A stretch of 64,000 nt of DNA from Macrolepiota albuminosa (taxonomy: Eukaryota > Basidiomycota > Agaricomycetes > Agaricales > Agaricaceae): NCBI GenBank assembly GCA_027475525.1, contig JAMWFC010000132.1:295074-359073 (forward strand), read 5' to 3'. Every line of letters starts with the position of its first letter. The stretch's first letter is position 1. Positions 5,452-49,374 of the stretch are shown here, in pieces. The notes below the pieces were generated by a model. It was not told where the DNA came from. It was given only the letters and a program-made list of their open reading frames with translations, and did no database searches. The translations under genes and the position numbers were made by a program.

Positions 5452-5751
5452 ATGTCGTTCCCCTCTAAGAGCCAGCCCCACACCCCTGGGCCTTCCGCAC
5501 CCTGTCGCCGCCGTATGGCTAGCTTGCTGCCCCCCTCTCTACCCCCACGCGTCGCCCAACCTGCCACCCCCCAAAAACTTCCCTCGGGCAAGGTCGTGCG
5601 TGCTGCTGCCAAGGACCTCGCTGTGGAGTTGCCTACCCACACCTGGTGTCAGGCCAACGTGCCGGTGCGTCCATTCCTGTATCTGCGTTTCCCCACTTAC
5701 CCTCTGCCAGTGTGACTATTGTGCCCGAAAGGGCCAGACATGCATGTTTCC
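5452..5751 (+). pseudogene. Older chromovirus antisense gene, 5' part (interrupted)
   Basis: ATG at 5452. Exon 1 (5452-5664) is Pro/Ala-rich and ends LPTHTWCQANVP at a GTGCGT donor. A 46-bp phase-0 intron (5665-5710) ends TGCCAG. Exon 2 starts CDYCARKGQTCMF, the first half of a six-cysteine cluster, and is cut at 5751 by the insertion of the younger retrotransposon. Reading resumes in frame at 17346 after one copy of the TTTCC target duplication is removed. It is the homologue of the antisense gene carried by the inserted element itself (14245-16468). The plus orientation means it is antisense to the older element, whose chromodomain lies on the minus strand at 19567-19715. Confidence 0.7.
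5747..5751. repeat. Target-site duplication TTTCC (left copy)
   Basis: TTTCC directly precedes the 5' LTR and recurs at 17341-17345 directly after the 3' LTR. Confidence 0.85.
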
Positions 5752-6495
5752 TGTCACGACCCCTCCCCTCCGGGCCCACCCCGGGACACCCCCGGAACAC
5801 CATCCAGGACCCTCCCTCCGACCCCACAGGACACGCCCCGCCATCACGACCGCCGACACCGCCATCATGCGCATCAAGGACCGCCATCAGCCGCCACCAG
5901 CCCCGATCAACGACCGGATCACGCGGCCCATTTCCGGCTATCACGCATCACGCATCACAGCTCCCTCCGCGCCAATTGATCGCGCGCCCCACACGCGCAA
6001 TCCCAGTATACAGCCCCTGCCGCTACTCAATGACCCCCGGAGCCCATCCCAGACACCCCGGAACCCCGAGACCGGGTCCCGTAGTACTTATAGCGTAGTT
6101 CCTTGTTGTATTCGCCAGTCTTGATATTGCATAACTGTTACTTTGGATATTGCGTGCCCCTTGCTTGACTGGTACGCCTTGTTTGGTACGCTTTGACTGG
6201 CACGCCTTAGTATTCGCGTGCTCTAAGCTTTGGTACGCACTTCGCGACTCTTAAGTTACTAACTTGGTCTCGTCTTAGAACCTCCGGTTCACGACTCGAC
6301 CCCCTCTCGAACTTCCCCGTTACCCACCCACCCAAAACCCCCGGACCAAGTCCCCTCTCCTGGGATTTCCCTGTCCACGTCTTGAACCCCGGAGTCCTAG
6401 CCCCGGAGTTCCAGACACCCGAGTATCCGTAGATCAAGTCCGCATCGTAAGGGCGTCGCTTTCCCGGAAAGCCCCCGATTCAGCGGAACCTGACA
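5752..6495 (+). repeat. 5' LTR (744 bp)
   Basis: Starts TGTCACGACC and ends GGAACCTGACA. It is almost identical to 16597-17340; visible differences include one in CCATCC(A/G)GGACC, one in TATCAC(G/A)CATC and two near CGCGC(A/G)ATCCC(A/G). Confidence 0.95.
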
Positions 6496-6647
6496 TAATA
6501 TCAAGACTCTCTCCTTACACCGTTCTTGATGGCTACGTATACTCACACTTACTACCCCACCGGGTACCAGACCGACCCTTACGGACGCCCGGTACCCGAC
6601 CACTACTCCGCGCAGACCCCCCGCCCCGTCTACCCACCTCTCCCGTA

Positions 6648-6801
6648 CGAACCTCCATACCTCCACCGCCACTGGGCCCCCGACCCGTCCCTCTACGACC
6701 TGGGGCCCTCAGCCAGCTGGGCCCCGAACCTCCATACCTCCACCGCCACTGGGCCCCCGACCCGTCCCTCTACGACCTGGGGCCCTCAGCCAGCTGGGCC
6801 C
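6648..6801. repeat. 77-bp tandem duplication in gag
   Basis: Two identical adjacent 77-bp copies. It shifts the gag frame by +2; probable assembly artefact. Confidence 0.9.
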
Positions 6802-6809
6802 CTCTGCCC

Positions 6810-6963
6810 AATTTAGCCATGGCGCGACCCGTGGAGGTCCCCTCGTACCGGAGCATCCCCGGGGGCCTGCCGGAGACCCCACCTGTAATTTAGCCATGGC
6901 GCGACCCGTGGAGGTCCCCTCGTACCGGAGCATCCCCAGGGGCCTGCCGGAGACCCCACCTGT
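6810..6963. repeat. 77-bp tandem duplication in gag
   Basis: Two adjacent 77-bp copies with one mismatch (CCCCGGGGG versus CCCCAGGGG). Probable assembly artefact. Confidence 0.9.
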
Positions 6964-7078
6964 ACTCAGTGGACCTCGCCCGATTTCCCCCAGCGAGGGC
7001 CCCTTTGCACCCACCCCCTACTACGGTTACCAGCGCCCCGTCCCCCAACCCCGAGAACCCCGAGGACCCCCCTACCCC

Positions 7079-7232
7079 GACTACCCCCTTCGTCATTACC
7101 CGGCCGCCGCCCCACCCGCTCGAACCCCTCCCTCGCCAATGGGACGACGACGCCTGACTACCCCCTTCGTCATTACCCGGCCGCCGCCCCACCCGCTCGA
7201 ACCCCTCCCTCGCCAATGGGACGACGACGCCT
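7079..7232. repeat. 77-bp tandem duplication in gag
   Basis: Two identical adjacent 77-bp copies. Together with the two preceding duplications it restores the net gag frame. Confidence 0.9.
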
Positions 7233-8086
7233 TGAGGAGTATGAACGGCAACGGGACAAGGTACTCCGCTCCCTCAGGATCTTGCCAGAGAACTTCGCAC
7301 AACGGACAAGGACGCTGCTCGTGGAATTCGGACACGACGACTTCGAAGGCACTCCGGAGGAATGGGCTCACTGCCTGGTCGAATTCGGGGATCGCCTCAC
7401 GCGGGGAGAACTCCCGGAGCAAACCATGGTAAAGTATAGGCGCAATACGATCCTCCGGGAAGAATTACAGCAGCTGCTCGACGAAGTCCACGCGTCCCCC
7501 TCCCCTCGGCCCCTCAACGACCCCGCGGACCCAGGTCGCTCGATTCACATTCGACGGGAACCCCCGGAACCGGCCCCAGCAGTCCCGGCAGCCCCCACGG
7601 TCCCCACTCCGGAGCAACGACAACGGGAAGAACGGCAGAACGCCTCAGCCATATTACGGTCCCTCAACCTGGCTGGAGGCCTCTTCGATCAGCCCGCGGC
7701 CCGCACGGTAGGCTTGTCAACTCGCCGCAGGGCTAACTCCGTCCCTAGTACCTTCGAGACCTGGAGACAGCCTCAAAGACCCCTGGAACCCCTCCTGCGA
7801 ACAGACAACGCCCGACCCCTGGCCCCGGCGAACCCCGGTAGACCCCGCGCAGACACCCCTAGCACGGACGACACGCTGTGCTACATTGACGAGCTTACGC
7901 GTGGCAACAATGAACTGCGTCCCACGCCCGCGCCCGTCCCGGTACCGCCCCCTACGTCAGTCCCGGTCCCTCTGGAACGCAGCTTCCGCCGCGATCCGCC
8001 ACCCCACTTCGACCTACAAAACCCCCCGCGACCCCCGATACAAGCACGACCCTCCCAGGTTGAACGTCCCCCGCGCAACCCAGTAC

Positions 8087-8240
8087 CCGACCCAGCACCC
8101 AACCCCCCTCCGCCCGACCCGACACCGCCGAACCCTCCCCGACCACCTCCGCCACCCCCAGCCCCGACCCAGCACCCGACCCCCCTCCGCCTGACCCGAC
8201 ACCGCCGAACCCTCCCCAACCACCTCCGCCACCCCCAGCC
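8087..8240. repeat. Imperfect 77-bp duplication in the Pro-rich gag linker
   Basis: The period is again 77 bp, but with several mismatches in a CCG-rich stretch. Collapsing it brings the N-terminal gag frame into register with the capsid frame at 8655. Either a genuine repeat or a join between non-identical overlaps. Confidence 0.7.
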
Positions 8241-9439
8241 AAACCTCGAGGACGACCCCCAGGCCCTCCACCCCCGCCACTCCCTGCGTGGAGACCTGGG
8301 CCCCCTCCTGGCAGGAACGAACCCCCTTGGGACAACGGGCCTCCCGGGCGTGGACCCTCAGGTGAGCCATCCGGAGGAGGACCTCCCGGCGGGTGGGGTC
8401 CTGCCCTTGGTGCTTTTCCTCCTCAAGGAGGGGGGGGTAATCATTACTACTATTATTACAATGCTGGCCCCCCTCCCCGTAACGCTGCCGGACCGGACGA
8501 CGCTCGCGACGCCCTCGCCCGCGAAGGACGACTGGACATCCAAAAGCCCAACGCTTTCACGGGCCGGGACCCCCGAAAATGGCGTACCTTCCTCACTCAG
8601 TGTCTCAATACATTCCAGGCAAAGCCGCTCACGTTTCAGGTTGACAGCTCCCAGGTGGCCTTTGCCGCGTCGTACCTCCAGGGGATCGCCTTCGATCACT
8701 ACACGGCCCTCATCCAGTTCGACCCCAACAACCCGGCACTTGCTCGCTGGCAGGCCTTCGTCGACGAGTTCTCCGGGAAGTTCGGAATCTACGACACCGT
8801 GGCCAAGGCCGAGGACAACCTCTTCAATCTCCGGATGCGCTCGGAAGAACGCTTCACCACCTTTATCGTACGTTTTGAGAAGGAAGCTTACGAAACAGGT
8901 TGGAACTACAGCGCCCTCCGGTACGCTCTCCGCCGCGCCCTACCACAACGCATCAAGGACGTCCTCTGACTCGCCCCGAAACAACCCTCCTACAACGGAT
9001 ACAAGGCCCTCGTCATGCAGATCGACCAACGCTACTGGGAAGACCGCAGCGAGTATTCGAATTCCCGACCCCCCTGGCCCTCCGGCGAAGCCCTCAACCC
9101 CCAAGGTCGAAACCCCGGTCCCCCCGCGTTCCCTGGCGGCCGACCCCCGGTGAGTCGCGGCCCGCCCAATGCTAACCCCGGCAGCGGCACCCGCCCCCAG
9201 GCCCAGCTCAACGCCGCCGTGGCCGCCCAAGACCCGGGCGACGCGCCAAGCCCCGAGGAACCCCCGGGAGACCCCGAAGACTTCGACTTCGACGACGAAT
9301 GGGACGAGGAGGCCCTCCGAGCCAACCGGCTTCAAAAGAAGGGACGACCCTGGATCGAAGTCCCGACGGATGTGCAGGAACGACGGAGAAGGGAGGGTGT
9401 CTGCATACTCTGTGGTGAGAAAGATCATTTCATCTCCGA

Positions 9440-12400
9440 GTGCCCCAAATGACAGGTCATGGGACATGCCACCTGGACCTTCGAAGGGGAAGACGCCACC
9501 TACGAGTATTCGGAAAACGACCCGGCGATTTAGACCCGGAAGACACCCTAAATCGTGGAATCGACCCCGACGTCTTCTCCGCCCTGGTCTCACATCTTCG
9601 CTCTACGACACTCGTACAGGACACCCTCACGGCTTATCTACCCTCCCACTCTTCGCACTCCCTCCTCCTCAAAACCCGCCTCACCCCCTCCGGAACTCCC
9701 CTCAGCACCCTCGTCGACAGCGGCGCCACCGACAACTTCATCGACGAAGCATGGTCTACCCTCGCCCCGGAACCCGCCCAGCGACTCCCGGTCCCGGTAC
9801 GGCTCTGCCTCTTCGACGGAGACGCCTCTACGGCGGGGGACATCACTCATTTTGTGCGTATGCCCGTTACCTTCGCCAACGGACAGACTCACACCCTCCG
9901 GATGTTGATAACCAAACTCCACCCTTCCGCACCCCTGGTCCTAGGGCTCCCGTGGCTCCGAGACACTAACCCCCGCATCGATTGGCGGCACCTCACCCTT
10001 CGCCTGACCCGGGACCCGACCCCCGACGACCAGCAACTCCTCTTCGACATCCCCCACTCCCCCAACCCTGCCCCGAAGGACGGGCCTCCACCACCCCCTG
10101 GACTCCAGTCCCGTTCATCCCGATTCTTCGTCATCAATGCCAGGCTGGACGGCGCCCCAGGACCAGTCTCGGCCCTCATCGACAGCGGAGCCACCGGAGT
10201 ATTCATCAGCGACGCTCTCGACCTCCCCCACGACTCCCTCGACCAGCCCCTCCGCCTGCAACGCCTCGACGGCACCCCCTCCTCCTCTGGCCCCATCCAA
10301 AGGTCTCACTCGGGACGCGTGACCCTGGACAACAACTACAAGTTCACTTCCGACTTCCTGGTCACGCGACTTCACGAATCGACCCTGATGGTGCTGGGAC
10401 TGCCCTGGCTGCGCGACACGAACCCCAATATCAATTGGAGGACGCTCACCATGACCTTCCCGGGGCCCGAAGACCACCCCTCGACCGCCGTGCACCTCCG
10501 GGCTCTAGGAAGCGACCCGACGCCCGACACCCCCGGGACGACTGCCGCGCCCCCCACGCATGCACCACCCCCGCCCATCCGAGACCGCAAGGCCCCCGAT
10601 CGACCCCCAAACATTCCTCGGAACAAGTACAAGGGGCCGAACTACCCCTGCCGGTCTCAGACACGCGTCACACCCGCTCCGGCCGATGATTCCGCAACAC
10701 CGATCGACCCGAGCGCACTCGACATTAGGATCATTGGGGCCGCCCCCTTCGCCCGCCTCATGAGGGATGGGACTCCCACGTTTCAGCTGCACACCTTGCC
10801 TTCTCTCCCGGAAGAACACCTACGAGGGGACGCCATTCCCCCGGAACAGAAAACCGAGGAGCAAATCCTCCGAGAAGTAGTTCCCCCGAAGAACACCTAC
10901 GAGGGGACGCCATTCCCCCGGAACAGAAAACCGAGGAGCAAATCCTCCGAGAAGTAGTTCCCCCAGAGTATCACGAGTTCGCTGACATATTCTCCGAAGG
11001 AGACGCCAAGGAGATCCCCCCTCACCGCCCCTATGATCACACCATCGACCTCGAGGAAGGAGCCAACCCCCCTTTCGGCAAGGTCTACAACATGTCGGAG
11101 GTCGAACTCTGGGCTCTCAAGGACTACCTCAACGAAATGCTCGGTAAGGGATTCATCCGACCCTCCGCCTCCGCCGCCGGAGCCCCGGTTCTATTCGCCA
11201 AGAAGAAGGACGGCTCACTCCGACTCTGTGTCGACTACCGGGGACTCAATAAGATCACCAAGAAGAACCGCTACCCGCTCCCGCTCATTGGCGATCTGGT
11301 CGATCGACTCCGCAGTGCCAAGGTTTATACGAAGATCGACCTCCGCTCCGGTTACAACAACGTCCGCATCGCCCTGGGACACGAGTGGAAAACTGCGTTC
11401 CGCACGCGGTATGGTCTGTTTGAGTACCTTGTGATGCCTTTTGGAATGACTAACTCCCCCGCCACGTTCCAATACTTCATGAACGACATCTTCCACGACA
11501 TGAGCGACGTCTTCGTGATCGTCTACCTGGACGACATCCTCATTTATTCCGACTCACCGGAGGATCACCAGAAGCATGTCCGGCAGGTCCTCGAACGCCT
11601 CCGGGAGCACAACCTCCATGCCAAGCCCGAGAAGTGTTCATTCCATACGGAAGAGGTTGAGTATCTTGGCGTCATCGTATCCCCGAACGGCGTTCGCATG
11701 GACCCCCACAAGGTCGAGGCCATCGTCAACTGGCCGCAACCCCGGAACGTGAAGGAAGTACAGTCCTTCCTGGGTTTCGCTAACTTCTACCGGAGGTTTA
11801 TAGACAACTACTCCGGGATCACAAAACCCCTCAACCGGCTCACGCGTAAGGACATCGCCTGGAACTGGGACAGTAAGTGCCAGAGCGTCTTTAACTTGCT
11901 CAAGGAGGCTTTCACAGTCGCCCCGGTACTCCGGCACTACGACCCGGCCCTCCTGATCATCCTGGAATGTGACGCGTCCGACTACGCCATCGCCGGGATT
12001 CTCTCGCAGATGGAACCTGCCGGAGGGGAGCTCCGGCCAGTTGCCTTCTACACCCGGTCCATGATCGACGCCGAACTCAACTACAACATTTACGACAAGG
12101 AACTCCTCGCCATCGTCGAAGCCTTCAAGCAATGGCGGGCCTACCTCGAGGGAGCCCGGCACCGGATCCAGGTCTATTTGGATCATAATAACCTGCAGTA
12201 TTTCACCACGACCAAGCAACTCAGTCGACGGCAGGCCCAATAGTCCGAGATCCTCTCGGAATACAACTTCACGATCCAGTACCGCCCGGGACGACTCGGA
12301 GCTAAACCCGACGCCCTCACCCGTTGACCGGATGTCTATCCCAAGAAGTCGTTCGAGGCGGAACGCAATGCGTTCAATCATCGCGTGGTGATCCCCCCTG

Positions 12401-13853
12401 AACATCTGAATGCCGTACTGATCCTAAACGACGAAGGAACCCTGAACCAGATCCGCCGCGCTCCCCGAGACAAGTACTTCACCGATCACAACCCCCGAAA
12501 CTCTTCCGACGGAACCGACCGGGACCCCGCCTTCTCCTTGTCCCCCGACGAGAAACTCCTCCTTCGGGACGGCCGCATCTACGTCCCGGATCACGCCCGA
12601 CTTCGCTACGACGTCCTCCATCAACACCACGATCACAAGCTCTGGAAACACCCTGGAATACGTAAGACTCTCCAGCTGATCTCCCAGACTTATTTTTGGC
12701 CAGGGTTGAAGAAGGACGTGACCCGCTACATTTGATCATGTGAACCCTGCCTCTGGGCCAAGGTCCCCCAACACCGACCATACGGACTCCTGAAACCCCT
12801 GCCAGTCGGACGACGCCCCTGGTCCTCCATATCCCTGGACCACATCGTCGAACTCCCGGAATCTGAAGGGTTCGATGCCATTCTCGTCGTTGTGTGCAGG
12901 CTAACCAAACAGGGCATCTTCCTACCCTGCCATACCATGGACACCGCCCCGGACTTCGCCCGACTGTTCCTCGAGCACGTCTTCGCCAAACATGGACTCC
13001 CGGACGACATCGTCTCCGACCGTGGCCCTCTCTTCGTGTCCAAGTTTTGGACTTCCCTGTGTAAGGCACTTGAAGTAAAGACTAACCTCTCTACCGCCTA
13101 CCACCCCGAAACCGACGGCCAAACCGAAAGGGTCAATCAGTCTCTCGAGCAGTACCTCCGACTGTACGTCAACTACTTGCAGGACGACTGGCGCGCCGAG
13201 CTCCCCCTGGCCGAGTTCACCTACAACAACACACCGCACTCTGCCACCGGGGTATCCCCCTTCTTCGCCAACAAGGGATACCACCCTCGACTGACACTCT
13301 TGCTCCGGGACATCCCGTCGCACGCCGCCCACGAGGTCGCCCGGGATCTCCAATCCCTTCACGAGTTTCTCCGGGAGACACCCCCGACTGGGCCCCCGGG
13401 ACAAAGGTATGGCTAGATCGGCGACACCTCCGTACCCGCCGGCCCTCCCCAAAACTCGATCACAAGCGTCTCAGCCCGTTCAAAATATTGAAGAAGGTCT
13501 CATCCCACGCCTACAAGATCGAGCTCCCCCCGGGACTAAAAGGTCTGCACCCGGTATTCCACGTCTGCCTCCTGGGACGACACCCCCCGGATCCTTTCCC
13601 CGAACGGCGCCCTGAGCCCCCTCCCCCGGTCGAGGTCAAGGACGAGTACCACTACGAAGTTGAGGACATCCTCGACTCCCGGAACATTTGTGGACGACCC
13701 CACTTCCTCGTACGGTGGAAGGGATATGGCCCGGAAGACGACACCTGAGAACCACGCAAAAACCTCGAAGGCGCCCTCGACAAACTCCGGGACTTTCAAC
13801 AACGGCACCCGGGAAACGACCTCCCCGGGCGCAGGACTCACAGACGGCAGTAG
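9440..13853 (+). pseudogene. pol: pol polyprotein gene (PR-PR-RT-RH-IN-chromodomain), mutated
   Basis: Pol overlaps the end of gag in the -1 frame. Domains in order: two retropepsin-like modules (LVDSGATDNF at about 9710 and ALIDSGATGVF at about 10172, each followed by VLGLPWLRDTNP); RT about 11000-11700 with [30 protein letters not shown] and YLDDILIYS (YLDD 11524-11535); RNase H with [14 protein letters not shown] and [12 protein letters not shown]; integrase with an HHCC zinc site (12620-12750) and catalytic D, D, E (LDHIV, SDRGPLF, VNQSLE); chromodomain 13635-13805 ([15 protein letters not shown]). In-frame stops at 12241 (TAG), 12325 (TGA), 12733 (TGA) and 13746 (TGA) each replace a conserved Trp or Arg through one C:G to T:A change. 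At about 13375 a short deletion plus frameshift removes the stretch before [14 protein letters not shown] 77-bp duplication at 10811 is an artefact. Confidence 0.88.
10811..10964. repeat. 77-bp tandem duplication between protease and RT
   Basis: Two identical adjacent 77-bp copies. Removing one joins the protease frame to the RT frame. Confidence 0.9.
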
Positions 13854-14244
13854 TGGGCGTAACCCCCGCCTCTGGGCTCAGTAGGGATTCAACTTCCATG
13901 TATATTTTCTGCTTTCCCTTTCTAGATCTTACTCTCTTTAGTACTTTCTTCACAGTAACGCCCCGGATTCTGGGCAAGGTACACTTTCTCGTTTTTCCTA
14001 CCACTTTACTTACTTTAGTACTTTCTTCACAGTAACGCCCCGGATTCTGGGCAAGGTACACTTTCTCGTTTTTCCTACCACTTTACTTACATTTTGAGTA
14101 CGACGGCCGAATATATACATTTTCTAGGAGATACATTATAGTTACAGACCAGGAAACCGGCAAACGGCAAGAAAACAGGGACCCCTAGATCTGGGGCCCC
14201 GAGTCACCCTCACCCCCCCCTCCCCTCGGCCAACCCCGGAAATC
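13854..14244. other. Spacer between pol and the antisense gene
   Basis: Convergent 3' ends of pol (+) and the antisense gene (-) meet here. The stretch is T/C-rich, contains a 77-bp duplication at 13936, and has no coding signal. Confidence 0.6.
13936..14089. repeat. 77-bp tandem duplication in the pol/antisense spacer
   Basis: Two identical adjacent 77-bp copies in non-coding DNA of the retrotransposon. Confidence 0.9.
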
Positions 14245-16468
14245 CTACCCCACCCCCTCTGGACCGTGCTCTCGCAACACCTCCTCGGCCAGCTGCTCCC
14301 AAGACAGGAGCTGCTCGCCCTCGTCCAAAATGCGCTCGAACCACGATTCCGGGGCCGGGACGTTCCTCCGGCGGTGCGCGCCCACCAGCCTCCCCAGCAA
14401 ATCTAGACCCCGCTCCACCCTGGGGCTCCCCGCCTCCGACCGTAGCCCCTCTTGGAGAGACGCGAGCGCCGTGGCGGCCTCGTCGAGGAGCAGACGGTGC
14501 TCCCGAGCCCAGCCTGGAAATATTAGTACGACCTAGGCACGAAAGGGGAGACACTCACTCAAGGAGGCCATGCGCCCGATGACCACGTCCCGGCGCAAGG
14601 CCTCGAGGGACCTCGCTCCGGGAGCCCAACCCCCTGCCCCAGCCTGGCCCTCATGGCGTCCAGCTGGGCCTCAGCTCCCCCTCGGGCCACCCTCGCCTCC
14701 TCCAGCTCCCGGAGGGCCATCTCGCGGTCCTCCTCCAGCCTCCTCCGGAGTGCCGCCTCCTCCCTCGCCCCCTCCTCGCGCTCCCCCCGCTCCTGGTTGG
14801 CCTGCTTGAGGCGCTCCTGCAGAGCCCTCACTTCAACGTCCAGCGGTCGCCCAGACAGGGGAGAGAACATCGCCGGGGAGAGGTGCGCTGGGGGAGTCGG
14901 GGGCGGGGTTGCCGCAGGCAGACGCGCCCTCTTAGAAGGCCCCGGGGAGGGACTAGGCGACGCCCGCCTCTTCCCCTTGTCGGGGCGCCCCCCGCGACCC
15001 TTGTGACTGCTGGCCCCGGCCCGGGTCACCCGACGGGTGATCAGGATCACGGGCCGCCCCCGGCCCCCACCCGAACGACCCCTCGACCCCCCGACCCCCC
15101 ACTGGGCGCCTCAGCGGGCGCCGCGGACTCCTCCCCCACCGGCTCCACCCCCTCCCCCACCGGCTCCACCACCCAGTCCCGGTCCTCCACTCCCATCCTC
15201 CGAGTGACCCCAGCCAGCGGCCACCCCCCTCCCCCACCGGCTCCACCACCCAGTCCCGGTCCTCCACTCCCATCCTCCGAGTAACCCCAGCCAGCGGCCA
15301 CCCCTGCTCCCGGGAGACACACCGCGCCCTCCACAGCGCCGATACGGAGCACCGCTCATGGTTCTGGCGGCAGGCCTCGCAAACGGATGTATCGCGGCGG
15401 GACGAGGGGCCCGGAACCTTGAACAGGCAAGGGACCACGCGCCGGGCGCAGTGCAGGCACTGCACCGAGATCAGCACAAAGACCAGGAGGTGAGTGTCAG
15501 GTTCCGCTGAGTCGGGGGCTTTCCGGGAAAGCGACGCCCTTACGATGCGGACTTGATCTACGGATACCCGGGTGTCTGGAACGCCGGGGCTAGGACTCCG
15601 GGGTTCAAGACGAGGACAGGGGTAATCCCGGGAAAGGGGACTAGAGTCCGGGGGTTTTAGGTGGGAGTAGCTGGGGGTAGGAGGGGGTCGAGTCGTGAAC
15701 CGGAGGTTCTAAGACGAGACCAAGTTAGTAACTTAAAGGTCGCGAAGTGCGTACCAAAACTTATAGCACGCGAATACTAAGGCGTGCCGGTCGAAGCGTA
15801 CCAAACGAGGCGTACCAGTCAAACAAGAGGGCANNNNNNNNNNNNNNNNNNNNNNNNNNNNNNNNNNNNNNNNNNNNNNNNNNNNNNNNNNNNNNNNNNN
15901 NNNNNNNNNNNNNNNNNNNNNNNNNNNNNNNNNTGAGAGCCCACTCACCGGTCCGTTGCTCACGCACCAGGCGTGGGCAGGTAAGCCCCGGAGCCTCTCA
16001 AGGGCCTCCTCAAACAACTCTTGCGTCACGCCCTCCCACACAACACGTTGACCCTCCGGGACTTCTGAGACGGCCCCTATCGCCATCCCGGAGCGACGAA
16101 AGCGGGGGGCAGGAAGTCTAGGACGAGGAGGGGGTTGAGGGCGGGGGGGGCGGACAGTCATCCACGCAAAGGTAGGCGCGGGACGACTGGGGCGGGACTC
16201 CGGGAGAACGCTGGGGCCAGCCTTGGGAACAGACTCCGGAAGTCGGCTGGGACCTGCCTCCGGGGCCGGAATGTTGCGTTGTTCTGAAAAGAAAAGGTCA
16301 GTGGGGTAAAGGGGCGGCGTGGGAGTACTCACGTTGCTCGACGAGCGCCGCCACGCGCTCCCGGTCAAGACGAGCCCGGTAACGCGCGTCCCGGGCTTCC
16401 CACGCCATGAGGGGCGCGACCTCGTTCGTTTGCGGGGGCGTCGGGGAATGCGTTGGCGTACGCGACAT
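14245..16468 (-). CDS. Antisense retrotransposon gene: Zn2Cys6-like cluster plus coiled-coil protein
   Basis: Spliced gene opposite to gag-pol. Exon 1 runs 16468-16333 (MSRTPTHSPTPPQTNEVAPL). After a 49-bp intron, exon 2 (16283-15949) is Pro-rich and ends LPAHAWCVSNGP. A 46-bp phase-0 intron follows, now containing an inserted LTR and the N gap. Exon 3 starts at 15459 with CLHCARRVVPC, then CEACRQNHERC. The six cysteines are spaced C-X2-C-X6-C-X15-C-X2-C-X6-C, close to the fungal binuclear zinc cluster (usual linker 5-12). Downstream are a low-complexity linker (77-bp duplication at 15148), a basic stretch (GPSKRARLP), a strong coiled coil (about 14880-14650) and a last exon after a phase-1 intron reading SWAREHRLLLD. 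Stop TAG is at 14247. A one- or two-base shift in a G run near 14640 may be a sequence error. Possible DNA-binding regulator; function inferred only from motifs. Confidence 0.7.
15148..15301. repeat. 77-bp tandem duplication in the antisense gene
   Basis: Two adjacent 77-bp copies differing at one base (CGAGTGACC versus CGAGTAACC). Confidence 0.85.
15490..15494. repeat. Target-site duplication GTGAG of the nested LTR
   Basis: GTGAG precedes the nested LTR. TGAG follows directly after the gap at 15934, consistent with a second GTGAG whose first base is hidden in the N run. Confidence 0.65.
15495..15833 (-). mobile_element. Nested LTR (3' part) of a related element, inverted
   Basis: Starts TGTCAGGTTCCGC, the reverse complement of the LTR end seen at 6495 and 17340. 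It remains alignable with the LTR of the host element for the whole 339 bp, with scattered substitutions and small indels, so it is an older or different subfamily. It lies in the intron just upstream of the cysteine exon of the antisense gene. Because gene sequence resumes immediately after the gap, the hidden part is either the rest of a solo LTR (about 400 bp) or a whole element. Confidence 0.8.
15834..15933. other. Assembly gap (100 N)
   Basis: Exactly 100 N, a conventional placeholder for unknown size. Confidence 0.99.
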
Positions 16469-16583
16469 GGTTGAACTTGACGGTAAAATTTTTTTTCGAT
16501 ACGTGGCAGGTCAGGTGCCAGATCCCACGGTTGACCCCCGGTCCGAACCACCGGCTACGCGCGCCTCGGAGGGTCTCGGTGCT

Positions 16584-16596
16584 GAGGGGGGGGTGA
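16584..16596 (+). other. Polypurine tract
   Basis: GAGGGGGGGGTGA lies directly before the 3' LTR, the expected place for the plus-strand primer of the retrotransposon. Confidence 0.75.
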
Positions 16597-17340
16597 TGTC
16601 ACGACCCCTCCCCTCCGGGCCCACCCCGGGACACCCCCGGAACACCATCCGGGACCCTCCCTCCGACCCCACAGGACACGCCCCGCCATCACGACCGCCG
16701 ACACCGCCATCATGCGCATCAAGGACCGCCATCAGCCGCCACCAGCCCCGATCAACGACCGGATCACGCGGCCCATTTCCGGCTATCACACATCACGCAT
16801 CACAGCTCCCTCCGCGCCAATTGATCGCGCGCCCCACACGCGCGATCCCGGTATACAGCCCCTGCCGCTACTCAATGACCCCCGGAGCCCATCCCAGACA
16901 CCCCGGAACCCCGAGACCGGGTCCCGTAGTACTTATAGCGTAGTTCCTTGTTGTATTCGCCAGTCTTGATATTGCATAACTGTTACTTTGGATATTGCGT
17001 GCCCCTTGCTTGACTGGTACGCCTTGTTTGGTACGCTTTGACTGGCACGCCTTAGTATTCGCGTGCTCTAAGCTTTGGTACGCACTTCGCGACTCTTAAG
17101 TTACTAACTTGGTCTCGTCTTAGAACCTCCGGTTCACGACTCGACCCCCTCTCGAACTTCCCCGTTACCCACCCACCCAAAACCCCCGGACCAAGTCCCC
17201 TCTCCTGGGATTTCCCTGTCCACGTCTTGAACCCCGGAGTCCTAGCCCCGGAGTTCCAGACACCCGAGTATCCGTAGATCAAGTCCGCATCGTAAGGGCG
17301 TCGCTTTCCCGGAAAGCCCCCGATTCAGCGGAACCTGACA
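16597..17340 (+). repeat. 3' LTR (744 bp)
   Basis: Same length and ends as 5752-6495. It is followed by TTTCC (TSD). Its last 94 bp reappear at 49276-49369 directly after the second gap. Confidence 0.95.
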
Positions 17341-17345
17341 TTTCC
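17341..17345. repeat. Target-site duplication TTTCC (right copy)
   Basis: Matches 5747-5751. Confidence 0.85.
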
Positions 17346-19039
17346 CACCCAAAAGGCCGGCTCGCGTCAAGGGGGCGCCACCTGCGAGGCCTGCCGACAC
17401 AAACACTCGGTGTGCTCGTACTGGATGCTGTGGGCTGCCGCCCTGGTTTCACGTGAGAACGGGTGGCCCTTTGGGTGGACCTATCAAATTCTGGGAGGAT
17501 GGGGCGGAGTGGAGAGTGTTCGTGATGAGGATGCATCGGAGGAGGAGGTCTGGTCGGAGTGGGAAGGTTTGGGGGGAGAGGGTGGCGACGACAGGAGTGA
17601 GGGACCAGACAGGGAGCTGCAGGCAGAGGGGGAGCTCATCGGCCCTACAGCCGATGAAGCAGTGATGGAGACGGTGACGGTGGGGGTCAAGTTGATGGGC
17701 ATAGGGGAGGGTATGGGGAAGGCCACGAGGTCGTTGGAGGGGGATGCGGGACCGTTGGCCGTGGCGCTGGGGAAGCGGCGCATGACTATGGAGGACGTAG
17801 AGGAAGGGAGCACTCCCTCCAAGTGCCAGCAGGTGAGCGCGCTCCCGCTACCCCTGGGTGGGTCGCTAATCTTCACCCAGGTCTTCTTGCCCTCGACAGG
17901 TCGTCCAGATGAGGCCGCCACCCTGCGATTGAGGAATGCGGAGTTGGAAGCGACGGTCGCAAGGCTGCAGCAAGACAGGACTTGGCAAGCCGACCAGTAC
18001 CGTGCAATACTGAAGACCATTCAGCAGGACCAGGAGGAGGCGCGGGTCGCATGCAACGCCTCCCTACACGCGCAGGTTGTGGTGCGGGAGATGGAGGAGG
18101 AGATCGGGGATTTGAGGAGACGTTTGGAGGGGGTTGACGGGCCCATCCGCCGCTACCTGATGGAGAGGCGAATCGGCCAGCTCCAAGAGGTGGTGGACTG
18201 GGGTGTGCAGTGGGACAAGGGCGAGGGTACCACGACGGATGGGGGGATTAGGCGAGTGGAGCTGGGGGTTCAGGCACAGATAGAGGGGGGGCTCCCTACG
18301 CCAAGATTGTGGAGCGGGCAGTGCACTGCAATGGGGGGGAGGAACCCGAGGAGAGGGAGAGGATGGTAGAGGTGGGGGTGCAGACTCAGGAGGGCGAGGG
18401 GGTGATGCTGCGCGACGCCAGGGTCCAGGCCTTCGTGCAAGAGGAGGAGGGGGACTCGGAGGAGGGAGTTAATGGGCTACAGCGGAGTCTTGGGTTGCCA
18501 CCCCTGAAAACGCTGGATGGGTTGAGGCGGGTGCAGGATGTCGAGCACCAGCGAACCTGGGCTTTTCCTCGTCTGACAGCAACTCGGACATCGGAAATAT
18601 GTGAGTACTGGTTCCCTGGGACCCTCCTTCACCTGACCTTCGAATCGAAGCATGGATACGCAACCACCGAGCCCTACTGGATGGACTGACCGCATCCTGG
18701 GGGTACCTAAGCGACGGTCTGCATCAAGTTCGCCCAGAGTACCGTCTGCCCCCGGAGATTCAGACAGCCCAGCTTGAGATGGAGTCCCTCGAAACCCAGC
18801 ACCGGCACCTGTCATTCTCCCTGGATCGTCCACTGGACCGCATCGCCCGAAAAACTGGGGAGCTGCTGCCAGATGCGACAGCGATCGTGTGTGAGGTTTG
18901 GGGGGACCTTACGAGGGACCTAGGGGATCCAGAGGTGATGGGGCCGCCGGAGGGGTCTGTGGATGTCACCCAGCCCATCGAGGAGGGTTCGGGGTCGGTG
19001 GATGTGCGGGTCGGGATCGTGCCAAGGGGTGTGGAGTAG
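17346..19039 (+). pseudogene. Older chromovirus antisense gene, 3' part
   Basis: Continues the gene cut at 5751. After the Pro-Thr junction it reads CEACRHKHSVCSYWMLW, completing the same C-X2-C-X6-C-X15-C-X2-C-X6-C cluster as in the younger element. An acidic linker (DASEEEVWSEWEGLGGEGG) follows, then a long helical, probably coiled-coil region (LRNAELEATVARLQQD to MEEEIGDLRRRLEG, about 17920-18140). A 50-bp intron (18601-18650, phase 1) precedes a last exon with SWIRNHRALLDGL, matching SWAREHRLLLD in the younger copy, and the frame ends at 19037-19039. One frame change between about 18290 and 18370 could be a small intron or decay. It is interrupted by an 11.6-kb insertion and therefore dead, but otherwise surprisingly open. 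Confidence 0.7.
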
Positions 19040-19225
19040 GTCAGGGGTTGAGGACGAGCGGAACGGGAGGGGGGCAATCGACTTAGGGATAGTCGGGGAT
19101 GGTCAGTGGAAGGGAGGGTTAGGGGGTAAACCGAAGAGTCAGGGGGGGAGGGGGGGGCTCATTTATGTATATAGTGTATAGTAGAAAATGTATATACTAG
19201 TGAGTCGGAGAAGGGGTATGAAGTG

Positions 19226-19356
19226 GAAGTATCAGTCAACAAAAGTAGGGGGTAGTGTCGATCAAGGGGAAGTATCAGTAAACGATAAGTAGGGGGTAGT
19301 GTCGATTTAGGGGAAGTATCAGTAAACGGTAAGTAGAGGATAATGTTGATTTTGTC
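19226..19356. repeat. Three tandem copies of a 43-44-bp repeat
   Basis: GAAGTATCAGT...GTAGTGTCGAT units start at 19226, 19269 and 19313 in the spacer between the older antisense gene and the older chromodomain. Confidence 0.75.
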
Positions 19357-19361
19357 ATTCC

Positions 19362-19389
19362 TATTATTATTATTATTATTATTATTATT
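19362..19389. repeat. (TAT)n microsatellite
   Basis: An uninterrupted trinucleotide run of about nine units. Confidence 0.9.
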
Positions 19390-19566
19390 GAGGTGTCCAC
19401 GGGCTGCAGGAGCAATGGGGGACAGTGAGAGGAATGGAAAGAAGAAAGGAAAAAGACAAAAAAAGAAAATGGGAAGAAGAAACGGAAACAACAGGGCGGA
19501 GAGAGGGGAGGCATACCAGGAGAACCATTATGTCGTGCGGGGGTCCTGGAGCTTGCCAAGGAAGAG

Positions 19567-19715
19567 TTAATAGAAGGTTTGGAGGGTGTCCGGAGCACTG
19601 CGGAGGTTGTTGATGGGTTCCCAGGTGTCATCTTTGGGGCCGTAACCTACCTAGTGGACTAGGTAGTGGACCCTTCCTCGGTGGAGGCGGGAGCCCGCAA
19701 ACATGCTGACGTGAA
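19567..19715 (-). pseudogene. Chromodomain remnant of the older Ty3/Gypsy element
   Basis: The minus strand reads RVHYLVH, a stop, then VGYGPKDDTWEPINNLRSAP and ends TLQTFY-stop. This is the chromodomain C-terminus of a pol polyprotein (compare [15 protein letters not shown] at 13700). The expected Arg-Trp is replaced by His-stop, two single C:G to T:A changes. Upstream pol domains are missing; KDZ-derived sequence begins at once. Its position and strand show that the gene at 5452-19039 is antisense to this older element, as in the younger one. Confidence 0.75.
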
Positions 19716-19749
19716 ACGACTACCCACCCCAGACTGGCCCATGGGATCC

Positions 19750-20925
19750 CTAGTTTGACTGGATAGGAGAGGCCAGTTTATGAAGGCGTTGCATGTGTAG
19801 GAAATTGAACTGATGAAGGCATTCTCGCTGCAGGAAAATCTGATGTGCGAGAGCACTGTCTGTACTTGCAATAGCCTTCTCTCGCTCCGGTAGATACACT
19901 TCTTCATCACAAATATAGGTAACAAGTTGTCGAATCTCGACGTTGACACGATCAATTTCCTCGTGCGCACGCTGGATCCTAAAATACTCATCTATCATAA
20001 TACAAGCAGCAGGTGCTGCCCAAGGGCGCTTAGGGATCTCTTCGCGTGTATCTGAAAGCAAGTCAAAGTCAGCAAGAAATGTTGAGACAAAGCATGTTGC
20101 GTCAGTCACACCGCGAGTGATCGTGATATTGATCATGCTCAGGCCAGTACTCAGGGTTGTCTCTTTGTATAAGTCGGACAAAGAGACAATGGACTGAAAT
20201 TGTACATATATACGATACCTACCAACATCGAGCCCTCAGTCAATTGTACGAAAGACTGAGGGTGAGTCACTTAGTTATATTACACACTACAAACCATACT
20301 TACCTTGATTGTAGACTGAACGTACTTACAATCTAGGGTTTATCTTCTAACAAGAAAGGCATATTCCACTACAAGTTCCCATGAAAGTTGAGGACGTGGT
20401 GGGGACAGGGCTTGAGCAGCAATGTTGTACTTGTCGAGAGCATTTCGTACTGCCTGTGACCAAGCCTTGAGGGCATTACCAATGTGCTTACGTAACTTGT
20501 ATCCTATTCCTCATTAATGTCAGTAATTATATTATAATTCATGATTGAATCAACTTGCCTATTTGTGACATGTTCATCTTTGTTAACTCAAACATCCTTG
20601 AAATAACCAAGCCCTCCAAATGCTGGTAGCGGCGCTTTGCCGACATCTCTGCTGCAGCACTCCACTCAGGGCTTGTTTGAGTCCATTGCGATGTCACACC
20701 GAGTTTTATTTTGAGGTCTTGGACAATGTTGAGGTCCTTTTCTTGGTTTTTGAGAGCATGTCGACGTTTTGTCTCTATAAACTGTGTATAGAGTCTGTGG
20801 ACTCGCTCGAGGTGTTGAAGAGACAATGGTGTATGACAACGACGCGAGGCTTTCAATTTGTTCGGCCGCTGAGGACACGGACCCAGAGGCCTCTGCTTCC
20901 TCATCCTCCTCATCCTCAACATCAT
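19750..20925 (-). pseudogene. KDZ-family transposase, C-terminal remnant
   Basis: The minus strand carries pieces typical of the C-terminal part of Kyakuja-Dileera-Zisupton transposases, common in mushroom genomes: YQHLEGLVISRMFELTKMN, GYKLRKHIGNALKAW, PPRPQLSWELVVEYAFL, then RPWAAPAACIMIDEYF and LAHQIFLQRECLHQFNFLHM. An intron with a GC donor (GCAAGT) and TAG acceptor joins MSQI to GYKLRKHIG in frame. Between EYAFL and ADFDLL lies a 271-bp insertion (20080-20350) flanked by a 7-bp duplication. The N-terminal catalytic part is absent. Confidence 0.65.
20080..20350. mobile_element. 271-bp hairpin-rich insertion in the KDZ remnant
   Basis: Flanked by CAAGAAA at 20073-20079 and 20351-20357. Removing the insert and one repeat restores the coding string EYAFL-ADFDLL exactly. 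Inside are three stem-loops: a 12-bp perfect stem (20157-20168 with 20178-20189), a 9-bp perfect stem (20233-20241 with 20254-20262) and a 7-bp stem (20307-20313 with 20327-20333). The ends show only weak inverted similarity. Nature unknown: MITE-like or SINE-like. Confidence 0.6.
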
Positions 20926-21189
20926 GCAGTCTGCACTTCCGTCTCTGCCATTATACGTGGAATAGAACGGGTTCAGACTCCGTCTGTATCACAAAAGTTG
21001 ACAGATGCAGTTCGTCCGTTTGTGTGCTGAACGAAACGTGGATGATCCTAGGCTCAGATTCGGTCTGTGTGTGGTGCGTCGTGAAGGAATAGTGGGGATC
21101 GTATTGGCATGAGGGGCCATGAACGCGTAGATTGTGATGTCATCTCCATTTTCACATGCTCAGCCTGTCACGAACCATTACACTTAAAT

Positions 21190-23638
21190 CCAAGTATGTC
21201 GTTCATAACCGGACAGGGATTAGCAACCAAGAGATTTCTCGAGCTGGATAGTGACGGTGAGGATATTGAGAGCAGACCCAAGGTTAGCCTGCTCATCAGC
21301 CGATACGCATGGAAAGGCTTATTCTTTGGCAAAAGCAAAGACAGGAAGAGGACGAGACAGACGAGGAAGAAGCCTATTCACGGTGCCATGCAGGGTATGA
21401 TCTCAACAACGAGGATATTGTATGTTGTGACCCAGTCTGCATATCATGCCCTATTTTAATGTCGCATAGTGGAAACCTCCAAAAGTTAATCCAGAGAAGA
21501 TGGTATTTGACATCCCAGAAAACCCAGATCATCTCTTTACATCTAATGCATCGAGTTCCCACCCAAAACCTTGACTTCTTCAACTTGACTTTAGCAGTCC
21601 TCACCTGTACCCCTTTACAAAACTTGCTGAGTGGAAACCACTCGTACGATCTTTAATTGCTGGATTTAATTTGTCCTCATGTTTTACAGAGACGTTTTAT
21701 TGTCCCACCACCTCCCCGTCTAATTGCATACTTCTTGCCAACCAAGTTGCGTCGTGGTAGTCGGCAACGTATCGTTCAGCCAATGAAGCCATTTACTTCG
21801 TTTAAACATGCCCCCGGATGTACTGTCTGCACCATTTTTAGTCATTGGACAGATGTTGATTTCCTTTTAAAATATAGTAATCAATCATATTGAACAGTCT
21901 GGGCCTTGGGTTGCAATAGCCAGTGCCACCGCTGGAGGACATGCCGACGACAACGTGATGGGTTCATATATTCTGTTCAGTTTCCATCTGAGTTTGCACG
22001 TCCTTACATGATGCATTATAGGTGACATCGACCCATATAACAGGGAGGGATCCATTATGGTGTGGAATGAGGAACCTGAAATGCTTCCAGGGCATTTCCG
22101 CCTCAAAAGTATGCAAAGCGTCTCTGAGGCAGTGTCGTTACAGCCGTTCAAGAAATACTACACCATAAATGACATCAAGTTCGATCCATGCAGGTAAACT
22201 TCGTTCTCTTAAACATTGCCCATCTCATCTCAACGTTCTGATCCGTTTAGTTCTTCCCTTGTATCTGCAGGGAATGACAAGACTGTGCATATATGGAGAT
22301 TCGATGATGAAACAAATACTTACAAGAAGGATGACCGATTCTTGTGTAATCTTAACGTCTGTATACCCACATAGTCTCCAGCTGAACCTTTGCACAGTCC
22401 CACATCAACCTATCAGTCTCACGTTCTGCCCAGATACATCTAGATCTGTCATTGCAGTTGCTGAAAAGTATGGTTAATCCTCTTTGTGATCGCTCAGGTC
22501 TAAGTTTGACGGGTATCTAGATCTGTCATTGCAGTTGCTGAAAAGTATGGTTAATCCTCTTTGTGATCGCTCAGGTCTAAGTTTGACGGGTTAGGTCTTT
22601 ACACCTCTTCTTTAATATAACCAGTCGTCCAGTACAAATGCCGCCCCTCTCCCTTTCCGGTCGCAAAAAGAAAGATTTTTATGTTGGCGCCATGAGATGG
22701 GGCTGTGACCCCACAGCAAATCATCTTTTTGCTTCATCGGAGCCCATAGACTCTGCAAAATCTGCGGGATACCACAAAGCAATTGATGCGGAACAGTGGA
22801 TACCACTATATGCCTTTAATGAGACCGGTGCCGGAGATGAAATTGCAATCACAAACGATGGTACGTTCAACAATGCCTTTGCTAGTCAGCTCTGAAAGGG
22901 ACTTTTAATAACCCTAGGTACAAGGTTGGCTTTGATCACACGCAGAGAAGATCAAACCCACCCTGTGTGTATATACGACATCAGGCGCTCAGACTCCACA
23001 GCCACTACCTCTATAGAACTGCCTTCCTTCCCTTCGGGTATTGAAGGTGAAGTCACTAGTGCAGCCTTTAGTCCAGACAACGTCTATCTGGCACTCGGCC
23101 ATAATGACAACTGCACTCACGTCTACGATTCGTGATTTTTTGACAGACTCATGTTTGAATACAAGCATCACAGTACACCGCGGACTCATCCAGGTAACTA
23201 TTCTCACGGTGTGGTGAAAGTTCAGTGGGTGGATGAGGATTCGGTACTGCCTTTTGGTCTTGTAACTGGCGGGAATGATAGTGAGCTAGTTGTGTTGAAC
23301 TTCATTCAAGTTTTTAACCACGTCATGATCTCATAGGATGTGTGCGCTTTTGAAATCCTTGGCAAGCTGACGGCAATCTCCGCAACGGTAGTATCCTTGC
23401 AGAGACTGATTCGGATGTGGCTACCTTTTTTATTGGGAACAGATATGAAAGGAAATACCCAATTGTGGTGTACGTCGTCTTCGTCACATTTCTGGTCTTT
23501 GTCATTGCTAATGTACGCCCCCAGCGGTGATAGCTCTGGGGAAGTTAGAGTATTTGACTTTGTTCCTCAAGGCTACCATTTGGTATATCGACAGCTCGAT
23601 CTTTTGCTCTGTCTAATTCTTTTCACCATGTGCTATTG
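21190..23638 (+). pseudogene. WD40-repeat protein gene, decayed
   Basis: Successive exons on the plus strand read an acidic N-terminal region (KRFLELDSDGEDIESRPK; EEDETDEEEAYSRCHAGYDL; FDIPENPDHLFTSNASSS), then WD-type repeats: SLVSAGNDKTVHIWRFDDE, FYVGAMRWGCDPTANHLFAS, VTSAAFSPDNVYLALGHND, SHGVVKVQWVDEDSV and GLVTGGNDSE, ending GDSSGEVRVFDFVPQGYH. Short introns can be placed in several positions (for example before GDIDPYNREGSIMVW, acceptor TTATAG at about 22020). Stops such as TGA after HVYDS (CGA expected) and missing connections argue for a decaying copy. It could be a beta-propeller scaffold of unknown role. A 77-bp duplication at 22438 is an artefact. Confidence 0.55.
22438..22591. repeat. 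77-bp tandem duplication in the WD40 gene
   Basis: Two identical adjacent 77-bp copies. The same duplication is present in the second block at 54467. Confidence 0.9.
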
Positions 23639-24299
23639 AGCTTTGTTTTCCAATTTCGTCCGTTACATATATTTGGGCTGCAACGAGAATCGTGGGAGAA
23701 ATTGACCAGGCCAACTGTTGAAGAATATGATGCTTAACTCCGGCTATTTGTTTATGACATCATTATTTCATCATATACACGTATGTTTTCTTTTTATTTC
23801 ATTACGACGCATTTATTATACTATCATGACATACACAATGTACATATATTCACGATTATAAATATCTTGTCGCACTGGAGTCATGTCATCTCTCAATATT
23901 GACTCCAGGTGGATTGTATACTTACATTATTACAAACTTATACTTATAAATCTCTCCATATTGACTCCAGTATTAAATATTGTCCACTACTGTACACAAA
24001 TACACATACTGTTCCGCTATAATGCTGCATCACCAACATGTGTGAGATTTATCAATTATATATGTAGTTAAATTTGGGTGCACGATCAATGCGAGGCAGA
24101 ACACTTGTGACAAGTGAGAATAAGATATCGAGTGACTTCAGTCGGTCGTGGTATTTTGCGTGAGCAATGATGTATTTCTGAGTCCGGAGTTTTTGAGCCG
24201 ACCCCCCAAAAAAAGAGGCTGAGTACTCAAGCCATGGCAGTGACCGGAGATTCAAATGGGACGACCTGAGGCCTTATTTGTTGCCTTCCGCTGCCTCAC
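23639..24299. other. AT-rich intergenic stretch
   Basis: Low-GC DNA with short direct repeats of TTGACTCCAG around 23927-23969. No gene is recognised. Confidence 0.5.
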
Positions 24300-26702: not shown

Positions 26703-27288
26703 TCAGTCATTGGTTGTCTTGGTTCCTTTCTTGTGGGCCTTGGTACACTCCTTCGAACGATCCTGGTATATCTGGAAGCATATCGTCAAGTCAATTTCTC
26801 AATCTAACAATATGTGAAACTTACCTTTCTGGTTTCTGCGTTGCAAGCCTTCCATACATCAACGAACTCGGCTTTAGTTGCATCTGGGTATGATTTCAGA
26901 TAATCGATAGCGCAAATGTTTCTGGACAGTTCAAGAAGTTATTATTATTATAGAGTAAGTACAAACAAACTTACTGAGCTGATGTTAATCCTTCTTTTAC
27001 TTTTAGTCGTTTTGTATTTAATTTCTTAGCATGGGCAGTGGCAGCGAGTTCACATAAGAATAAGGAAAGTTTTGAAAACATACCGACAATGGAATTTTGA
27101 TAGGCACCTGCAATAGAGTAAGAAAGTGAGAATAAAGAAGATTTTGAAGACGTGCCTGCAATGGGTTTATGGGTGGTGCCTGCAACATCAAGGGCATTGG
27201 TGCATGTGATGGAGTAGGATTTTGAGCATGCAACAAAAGCAATGGCATGGAAATCAGTGCCTGCAATGGCAAGGGAGCTGGTACCCAC
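26703..27288 (-). CDS. Small basic spliced protein, NICAIDYLK type
   Basis: The 3' exons are clear. One ends ...LKVKEGLTSA at 26975 (GTAAGT donor); after a 53-bp intron exon 26921-26825 reads NICAIDYLKSYPDATKAEF then VDVWKACNAETRK; after another 53-bp intron exon 26771-26703 reads IYQDRSKECTKAHKKGTKTT and ends ND-stop (TGA 26705-26703). Both introns are GT-AG and keep the frame. The protein is rich in Lys, with two predicted helices reminiscent of a compact HMG-like or nucleic-acid-binding fold. I recall similar short proteins from transposon-rich parts of mushroom genomes but cannot name a family. Upstream, around 27000-27288, a repetitive Ala/Gly/Thr- or Leu/Pro-rich reading frame may be its N-terminus; the start is not resolved. 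Confidence 0.55.
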
Positions 27289-27644: not shown

Positions 27645-27798
27645 AATGTACCCTTAGTCTTTGGTAAAAGAACTGAGGGCTAGTAAAAGGGGTCCCTCCC
27701 ACTAAGGGAAGATAGTGGCTAAATGTACCCTTAGTCTTTGGTAAAAGAACTGAGGGCTAGTAAAAGGGGTCCCTCCCACTAAGGGAAGATAGTGGCTA
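27645..27798. repeat. 77-bp tandem duplication, intergenic
   Basis: Two identical adjacent copies. Each includes an imperfect stem CCCTTAGT...ACTGAGGG. Repeated at 59674. Confidence 0.9.
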
Positions 27799-49369: not shown

Positions 49370-49374
49370 TTTCC

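Follow-up and report, generated by a model that had tools for sequence, protein, structure and literature searches.

An abundant family of Ty3 chromoviruses in the fungus Macrolepiota albuminosa carries, between pol and the 3' long terminal repeat (LTR), a spliced gene on the strand opposite to pol, and purifying selection keeps the protein encoded by this antisense gene intact. We describe the family starting from a stretch of 64,000 nucleotides (hereafter the window; contig JAMWFC010000132.1, positions 295,074 to 359,073) of a genome assembly of 100 Mb in 129 contigs. The window holds the element E1, which spans 5752-17340 and whose two 744-bp LTRs differ at 4 positions (99.5% identical), and an older relative into which E1 inserted. 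The antisense gene in both chromovirus copies, which had been noticed from the letters of the window in an original prediction, is confirmed, and the observation is far beyond chance given 148 scored matches genome-wide and open frames of 529 or 539 amino acids (aa) in 8 of 10 modelled copies. The best explanation overall, which we hold to be a little better than an even bet, is that this chromovirus accessory gene encodes a nuclear, dimerising regulator of the chromatin or transcription of the element.

E1 and its relatives are Ty3 chromoviruses, as they possess reverse transcriptase/RNase H, integrase, a chromodomain and LTRs flanked by target-site duplications (TSDs). The Pfam cut-offs were passed for RVT_1 and RT_RNaseH in the window piece and for Chromo in a 329-aa pol piece of another locus (L037; fetched loci are denoted by L numbers and related proteins by P numbers), and the rve match fell below its cut-off. 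The carrier is most likely a basidiomycete-type chromovirus family.

The structure of the antisense gene was modelled in 10 of the 18 fetched E1-type loci, taken from the first 20 loci because both their start and their last exon could be recognised. Once three introns (51-52, 45-47 and 45 bp; phases 1, 0 and 1) had been spliced out, 8 of the 10 models gave an uninterrupted protein of 529 or 539 aa, and the two failed models coincide with 77-bp duplications resembling assembly joints, which are treated below. Intron 2 is bounded by GT-AG and is 45-47 bp long in 17 of 17 loci. GT-AG borders of intron 3 were found by pattern in 14 of the 17 loci and by eye in the other 3, and the introns contain CTRAY-type branch sites, judged by eye.

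Codon comparisons between divergent copies showed that the open frame is maintained at the protein level. Between L029 and L037, the rates of non-synonymous (dN) and synonymous (dS) substitution are 0.129 and 0.792, giving a dN/dS of 0.163, with 0.085 in the Cys region, and the differences at codon positions 1, 2 and 3 number 71, 69 and 205. Coding on the sense strand was also considered for the gene region and rejected: each of the remaining five frames is interrupted by stops in both copies, with ratios of 0.36-2.0. For exon 3, dN/dS is 0.17-0.78 in 36 of 36 pairs among 9 elements, the interval of the close pair L033-L028 including 1, and in many pairs pol is under tighter constraint than the antisense gene. 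Very young pairs show 1 synonymous and 7 non-synonymous differences (L029 vs L034) or 4 and 3 (L029 vs L030), and a lack of constraint between such copies is expected for fresh insertions. The codon-level selection indicates that the protein matters to the element. These data bear on the alternative that the function resides in the antisense RNA, through convergent transcription, double-stranded RNA, silencing or feedback, with the open reading frame (ORF) being incidental. The tail-to-tail layout indeed sets the antisense mRNA opposite the genomic RNA, and control by antisense RNA is discussed for other elements (PMC7264820), but the low dN/dS, the excess of third-position differences and the fact that divergent alleles retain their splice sites and open frames weaken this explanation, which we regard as very unlikely.

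We then asked how regularly the gene accompanies pol across the genome, scoring the best 148 of 596 first-look candidates in a search with the Cys exon of the window copy split by E1 (copy 2), the best 150 of 777 with the last exon, and the best 122 of 3667 with pol. Judged by coordinates alone, a gene match lies downstream of and antisense to at least 86 of the 122 scored pol matches, and a single pol match among the 122 has a gene match upstream rather than downstream. The last exon was found for at least 50 pol matches, in 49 of them at a distance of 273-461 bp, and the Cys exon for at least 57, of which 56 have it 932-1507 bp downstream. Seen from the gene, 144 matches were counted after 4 of the 148 had been dropped (2 in the window, 2 overlapping others); the nearest pol match among those listed is on the opposite strand for 57, on the same strand for 1 and absent for 86. 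Twelve matches were drawn at random from 73 that had no listed pol partner and did not belong to the loci already fetched, and 11 of these have antisense pol at the expected place, with no antisense pol near the remaining one (L048). Among the 20 loci fetched first, pol is antisense to and tail-to-tail with the gene in 13, where it begins some 1.9 kb beyond the Cys exon (from about 5.3 kb). The antisense gene thus belongs to the regular make-up of the element and is no host gene picked up on two occasions, as at least 86 of 122 pol matches and 11 of 12 random gene matches attest. The spliced, selectively maintained gene integral to a chromovirus family that the original prediction had proposed is therefore borne out by the open models, the pol context and the dN/dS of 0.163. 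The examined matches lie mostly inside elements rather than among host genes outside them, and dN/dS is far from 1 in L029 vs L037 and below 1 in 36 of 36 exon-3 pairs.

A host gene of this family residing outside elements was considered as a separate candidate and is unsupported, in view of the pairing of pol and gene across the genome and of the 11 in 12 random matches. A related proposal, that a host gene is carried by the element as a passenger of no use to it, draws on the introns, which would point to a nuclear-gene origin, on captured genes known in LTR elements (PMC7264820) and on seven examined matches without clear antisense pol nearby. Six of the seven belong to the set L021-L027, which consists of the six loci nearest to copy 2 and of L027, a truncated E1 copy with a gap of undetermined bases (N gap). 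In this set, no pol was found around the gene in L022, L024, L026 and L027, L021 has a chromodomain piece only, the pol matches of L025 occupy both strands at a distance from the gene, and L023 has antisense pol pieces further off; the seventh match is L048. Most of the pol-less matches whose frames were inspected look degraded. The same place of the gene in many divergent elements and the purifying selection between them nevertheless weaken the passenger proposal, and no clear host gene of the family was found among the matches listed or among relatives sharing 5-residue words. We regard this proposal as very unlikely. A tblastn search with a copy-2 piece against plasmids gave no match, as expected.

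The predicted protein has a regular order of parts. From the N-terminus, a short charged segment, a proline-rich linker and W-C-x3-[GV]-P are followed by two triads C-x2-C-x6-C, 15 residues apart, then by a conserved W-x7-E-[QN]-G-W, a basic hinge, a coiled coil and a helical SWAREHRLLLD domain. In a 15-sequence profile, the columns F, C, C, H, C, W, E, G, W are invariant. The invariant His lies in the second triad, which can thereby be written C-x2-C-x3-H-x2-C, and a conserved extra Cys is found six residues before the first triad. The hinge resembles a bipartite nuclear localization signal (NLS) and reads KGKRRA...PSKRAR in the E1 type, KGKRKA...VRRR in Termitomyces and GKRR...TPSK in copy 2; a hinge of the form GKR[RK]...[KR]-rich is shared by the alleles, copy 2 and most of the Termitomyces homologues that cover this region.

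The label Zn2Cys6-like given in the original prediction holds for the two triads with basic residues, which are shared with the cluster of PF00172 (Zn_clus), and is not established in other respects; DNA binding and an action on the LTR or the host, which the prediction also raised, are likewise putative. PF00172 scored 11.9-20.1 bits in 4 of 12 queries, below the gathering cut-off of 21 bits, and was unlisted for the other 8. The spacer is 15 residues, outside the C-x2-C-x6-C-x5-12-C-x2-C-x6-8-C quoted in the original prediction, in copy 1 (the copy inside E1), copy 2, the L029 and L037 models and, by eye, the Termitomyces homologues with both triads. The order of the halves also looks swapped: three queries (L029 whole, an L029 piece and a piece of the Termitomyces protein P0007) match profile positions 13-37, the second half, with their first triad, which as a 34-aa piece reached 16.3 bits in L029 and 20.1 bits in P0007, and P0001 (copy 1) weakly matches positions 2-15, the first half, with its second triad (E 0.13). 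No Zn_clus was listed for the three second-triad pieces scanned against Pfam. The triad region thus looks like a half-swapped relative of Zn_clus that fails membership of PF00172, from which it further differs by the extra conserved Cys and His. With this His and the Cys before the first triad, two four-ligand sites would be as plausible as a Zn2Cys6 cluster.

The CCHC-like spacing of the second triad is central to the main rival of a nuclear regulator, according to which the protein acts in the particle or the pre-integration complex, binding RNA or DNA through the CCHC-like site or serving nuclear import or targeting of the cDNA. The invariant His, the basic NLS-like hinge and a weak match to the CCHC-type family AIR2-like_ZnK4 (E 0.039) are compatible with such a role, as is the position of the gene, which according to PMC7264820 is that of env in retroviruses. 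Yet the AIR2-like_ZnK4 match reached 14.4 bits against a cut-off of 27 and concerned one of three second-triad pieces, the Pfam scans of the queries listed no nucleocapsid family, and separate antisense expression would presumably decouple the protein from gag-pol dosage. We consider a particle role possible, on balance improbable.

The nuclear-type hinge, the coil and the Cys/His region together make a nuclear, dimeric nucleic-acid- or chromatin-binding regulator the best guess, and we rate the chances of such a protein as about even. Several observations weigh against it. The hinge is called NLS-like from its pattern alone, and the Zn_clus scores are low, as given above. AlphaFold did predict a long helix over the coil, in favour of the regulator, but its models are poor (mean pLDDT 54 and 63), too low to settle the metal site. 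A fold search of the PDB gave no match with E <= 0.001, a sequence search of the PDB returned weak, mostly coiled-coil matches (best E 0.26), and several Termitomyces copies lack some of the cysteines (P0016, P0018, P0019 and P0021).

Under the regulator reading, the gene would be transcribed from a promoter in or beside the 3' LTR, converging on pol, and the antisense transcript would be spliced into an mRNA for the 529- or 539-aa protein. The introns are antisense to the genomic RNA and, judging from retroelement biology, would not be removed from it, so that the gene would pass reverse transcription together with its introns; in this way, a backwards gene shows how a retroelement can keep introns. 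The Cys/His-rich region would probably bind two metal ions, and the protein would enter the nucleus, dimerise and regulate the element's own chromatin or transcription, by anti-silencing or by feedback on the LTR. Several old versions of each part of the protein would recombine near the hinge, with pol, and the LTR in part of the pairs, staying much more alike.

Comparisons between elements revealed that the gene is far more divergent than its surroundings. L037 and L029 are 95-99% identical in the gene-adjoining part of the LTR and only 69-87% identical in the gene. Their identity in pol is 91-99%, apart from a single 150-bp step of 89% at the pol end. The dS of exon 3 is 1.5-6.2 times that of the pol end in 21 pairs, with 7 pairs involving L032 set aside, whose pol looks out of frame, and 8 involving L033 being without pol; over all 28 pairs with pol, the ratio is 0.8-6.3. 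Up to about position 3800, L041 matches L039 at 95% identity; beyond that point the value drops to 73%, and L041 is closer to L029 (83%). L044 switches at the same place to another 3' module (90% then 72%), L033 and L028 show the reverse pattern, in which only the 3' half is L037-like, and copy 1 combines a 5' module of the L028/L033 type with a 3' half of the L037/L033/L028 type. The change of module comes immediately after the codons for the basic hinge. Breakpoints in L041, L044, L032 and L033 cluster around 3800 (L037 coordinates), at the hinge codons, which suggests that templates were switched where the gene is conserved. By these comparisons, the gene appears as a divergent two-module cassette, in which an N-terminal/Cys module and a coil/C-terminal module are mixed near the NLS-like hinge.

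Such a mosaic could also be produced by an assembler, if contigs were joined inside repeats and the real elements were uniform within each lineage. In 276.8 kb (the window and L021-L044), we found 66 tandem duplications of exactly 77 bp (at least 75 matching positions), for example at window positions 6648, 7079, 10811, 13936 and 22438, and many of them lie inside fetched elements; among periods of 30-259, the only other tandem repeat seen was a 61-bp array. The 77-bp duplications are almost certainly overlaps between contigs that a k=77 assembly failed to merge, and they break gene models in this genome and mark joints. The module comparison was redone on stretches without a 77-bp duplication or N. 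L029, L034, L041 and L044 contain neither in the stretch compared, and L039 has one imperfect copy beyond 5700. The same pattern persisted between these five: the pol end is 92-97% identical, unlike gene modules 72-79% and the LTR part 83-97%, with the exception of the 3' module of L041, which is 83% identical to that of L029 or L034. An assembly origin of the module divergence is thus unlikely.

The depth of the module types is in keeping with a factor for which specificity is important. One may go further and suppose a modular regulator that determines type, in which elements with similar LTRs and pol carry one of several old Cys and coil modules reshuffled near the hinge, and in which this diversity is held by selection, as in immunity or incompatibility types, a version unmatched by the control of resident elements or of the host being favoured. 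We regard this extension as doubtful; if balancing selection did act on the modules, retrotransposons would have their own equivalent of immunity-type diversity. These alignments do not support a simple pairing of protein and LTR, and it counts against simple allele-specific recognition of the LTR that L029 and L039 are 97% identical in the LTR part and differ in their cassettes, the LTR type not following the cassette type.

Relatives outside this genome were found by protein searches, which reach only relatives sharing 5-residue words. They are hypothetical proteins of Termitomyces sp. (Agaricales) T32_za158, T159_Od127 and J132 and one more, P0006. Identity to the E1-type query is 33-37% over 68-97% of its length, 40% over 27% for P0021 and 54% over 45% for P0006. 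The Cys region, the hinge and the SWAREH domain are common to these relatives where covered and not decayed, and 11 of the 15 Termitomyces proteins are encoded on contigs shorter than 8 kb, as repeats are.

Antisense ORFs in LTR elements are not a new kind of gene, and the original prediction, which knew of no described system of this sort, is not quite right on this point: antisense genes located between pol and the 3' LTR have been described in plants, as gene23 of Grande, in RIRE2 and as TRP28 of Retand (aORF-3R; PMC7264820 and PMC11963269), and in Boty-like Ty3/gypsy elements of Botrytis cinerea, whose antisense additional gene is named brtn (PMC8365987 and PMC7264820). The plant aORF-3R genes resemble the present family in place, orientation, presence in most copies and a predicted nuclear or DNA-related role (PMC7264820 and PMC11963269), and the features that characterise them recur here in position and orientation (at least 86 of 122 pol matches, 11 of 12 random gene matches) and in conservation (dN/dS below 1 in 36 of 36 pairs). 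A word search of the main text of the Retand paper, PMC11963269, found neither 'intron' nor 'zinc'. Retand belongs to a non-chromovirus lineage, whereas the present family is a fungal chromovirus with three introns, a Cys/His-rich region and divergent recombining modules, and no gene23/TRP28 family was listed in the Pfam scans, the sole sequence comparison made. brtn likewise is an antisense additional gene in a fungal Ty3/gypsy element, but in an ascomycete host, and the likeness is drawn from its published description.

HBZ of human T-cell leukaemia virus type 1 (HTLV-1) is likewise antisense and spliced, with transcription coming from the side of the 3' LTR, and its product is a nuclear coiled-coil-type regulator, a bZIP protein. 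The present gene would share with it the spliced antisense structure and, if our proposal is right, the nature of a nuclear coiled-coil-type regulator; it differs in that its carrier is a chromovirus and not a retrovirus and in that the Pfam scans of the queries listed no bZIP family. PMC7264820 mentions that the HTLV 3' LTR has an antisense promoter. In the literature searched, judged by titles and the openings of abstracts, no antisense gene in a basidiomycete LTR element was found, and a word search for 'antisense' in the accessible text of a paper on fungal transposable element co-option (PMC10799480) gave zero hits. As far as these listings show, it is new that the carrier is a basidiomycete-type chromovirus, that three introns are conserved, that the protein has the two triads and that modules are exchanged. 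In plants, antisense genes of LTR elements are long known, but no function has been assigned to them. With many copies, intact spliced frames, strong codon constraint and natural module swaps, the present family makes the role of such genes testable.

Both gene copies in the window are broken, and the original prediction had included neither this nor the insert in copy 1 nor the divergent recombining modules (Table 1). Its coordinates for both copies are correct, that of copy 2 being split by E1, and C-x2-C-x6-C-x15-C-x2-C-x6-C (in copy 2 read across the E1 insertion), SW.R.HR.LLD and a phase-1 intron before the W (S|W) are present in both. The intron of 46 bp reported before the first Cys is found as such in copy 2, and in copy 1 it has this length only without the inserted LTR piece and N gap. 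Copy 1 lies on the minus strand between E1 pol and the 3' LTR, with its ATG at 16468, its TAG at 14245 and three splice-site pairs at the expected positions. Its frame is lost in exon 3, where an imperfect internal duplication is found, and the LTR piece inserted before the first Cys belongs to the same family (LTR positions 404-744, 91%). Copy 2 is followed downstream by a degenerate chromodomain on the opposite strand.

Table 1 Positions of E1, of the two antisense gene copies and of associated features in the window
Feature	Position	Strand	Remarks
5' LTR of E1	5752..6495	+	744 bp; TSD TTTCC 5747-5751 precedes
E1 reverse transcriptase/RNase H ORF piece	11092..12243	+	RVT_1 E 2e-43
E1 integrase core piece	12892..13416	+	rve E 4e-5, 24.2 bits; Pfam cut-off 32.6
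3' LTR of E1	16597..17340	+	TSD TTTCC 17341-17345 directly after; G-rich polypurine-like tract before
Copy 1 exon 1	16333..16468	-	begins MSRTPTHSPTPP; from homologous models
Copy 1 intron 1	16284..16332	-	phase 1
Copy 1 exon 2	15949..16283	-	last residues ...HAWCVSNGP
Insert in copy 1 intron before first Cys	15495..15933	-	LTR piece 15495-15833 and 100-N gap 15834-15933
Copy 1 exon 3	14559..15459	-	both Cys triads, NLS-like hinge, coil; broken frame
Copy 1 intron 3	14514..14558	-	45 bp, phase 1, branch-like TACTAAT
Copy 1 exon 4	14245..14513	-	(S)WAREHRLLLD... up to TAG
Copy 2 first exon	5452..5664	+	C-terminal residues PTHTWCQANVP
Copy 2 intron before first Cys	5665..5710	+	46 bp
Copy 2 Cys exon, start	5711..5751	+	CDYCARKGQTCMF; interrupted by E1 insertion
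Copy 2 Cys exon remainder and helical region	17346..18600	+	frame shifts in 3' half; broken
Copy 2 intron before W	18601..18650	+	phase 1
Copy 2 last exon	18651..19039	+	(S)WIRNHRALLDG... up to TAG
Degenerate chromodomain of copy-2 element	19573..19716	-	52% over 48 aa, E 5e-9; holds stop

A stretch of 14.2 kb is 100% identical at window positions 17301-31500 and 49330-63529, including the same 77-bp duplications, and its second occurrence, which directly follows an N gap at 49176-49275, begins within the terminal part of E1's LTR; the two are probably one locus placed twice by the assembler. A long array of the 61-bp tandem repeat occupies 48189-49050 of the window and 4435-5110 of L026, where it adjoins a degenerate copy of the antisense gene.

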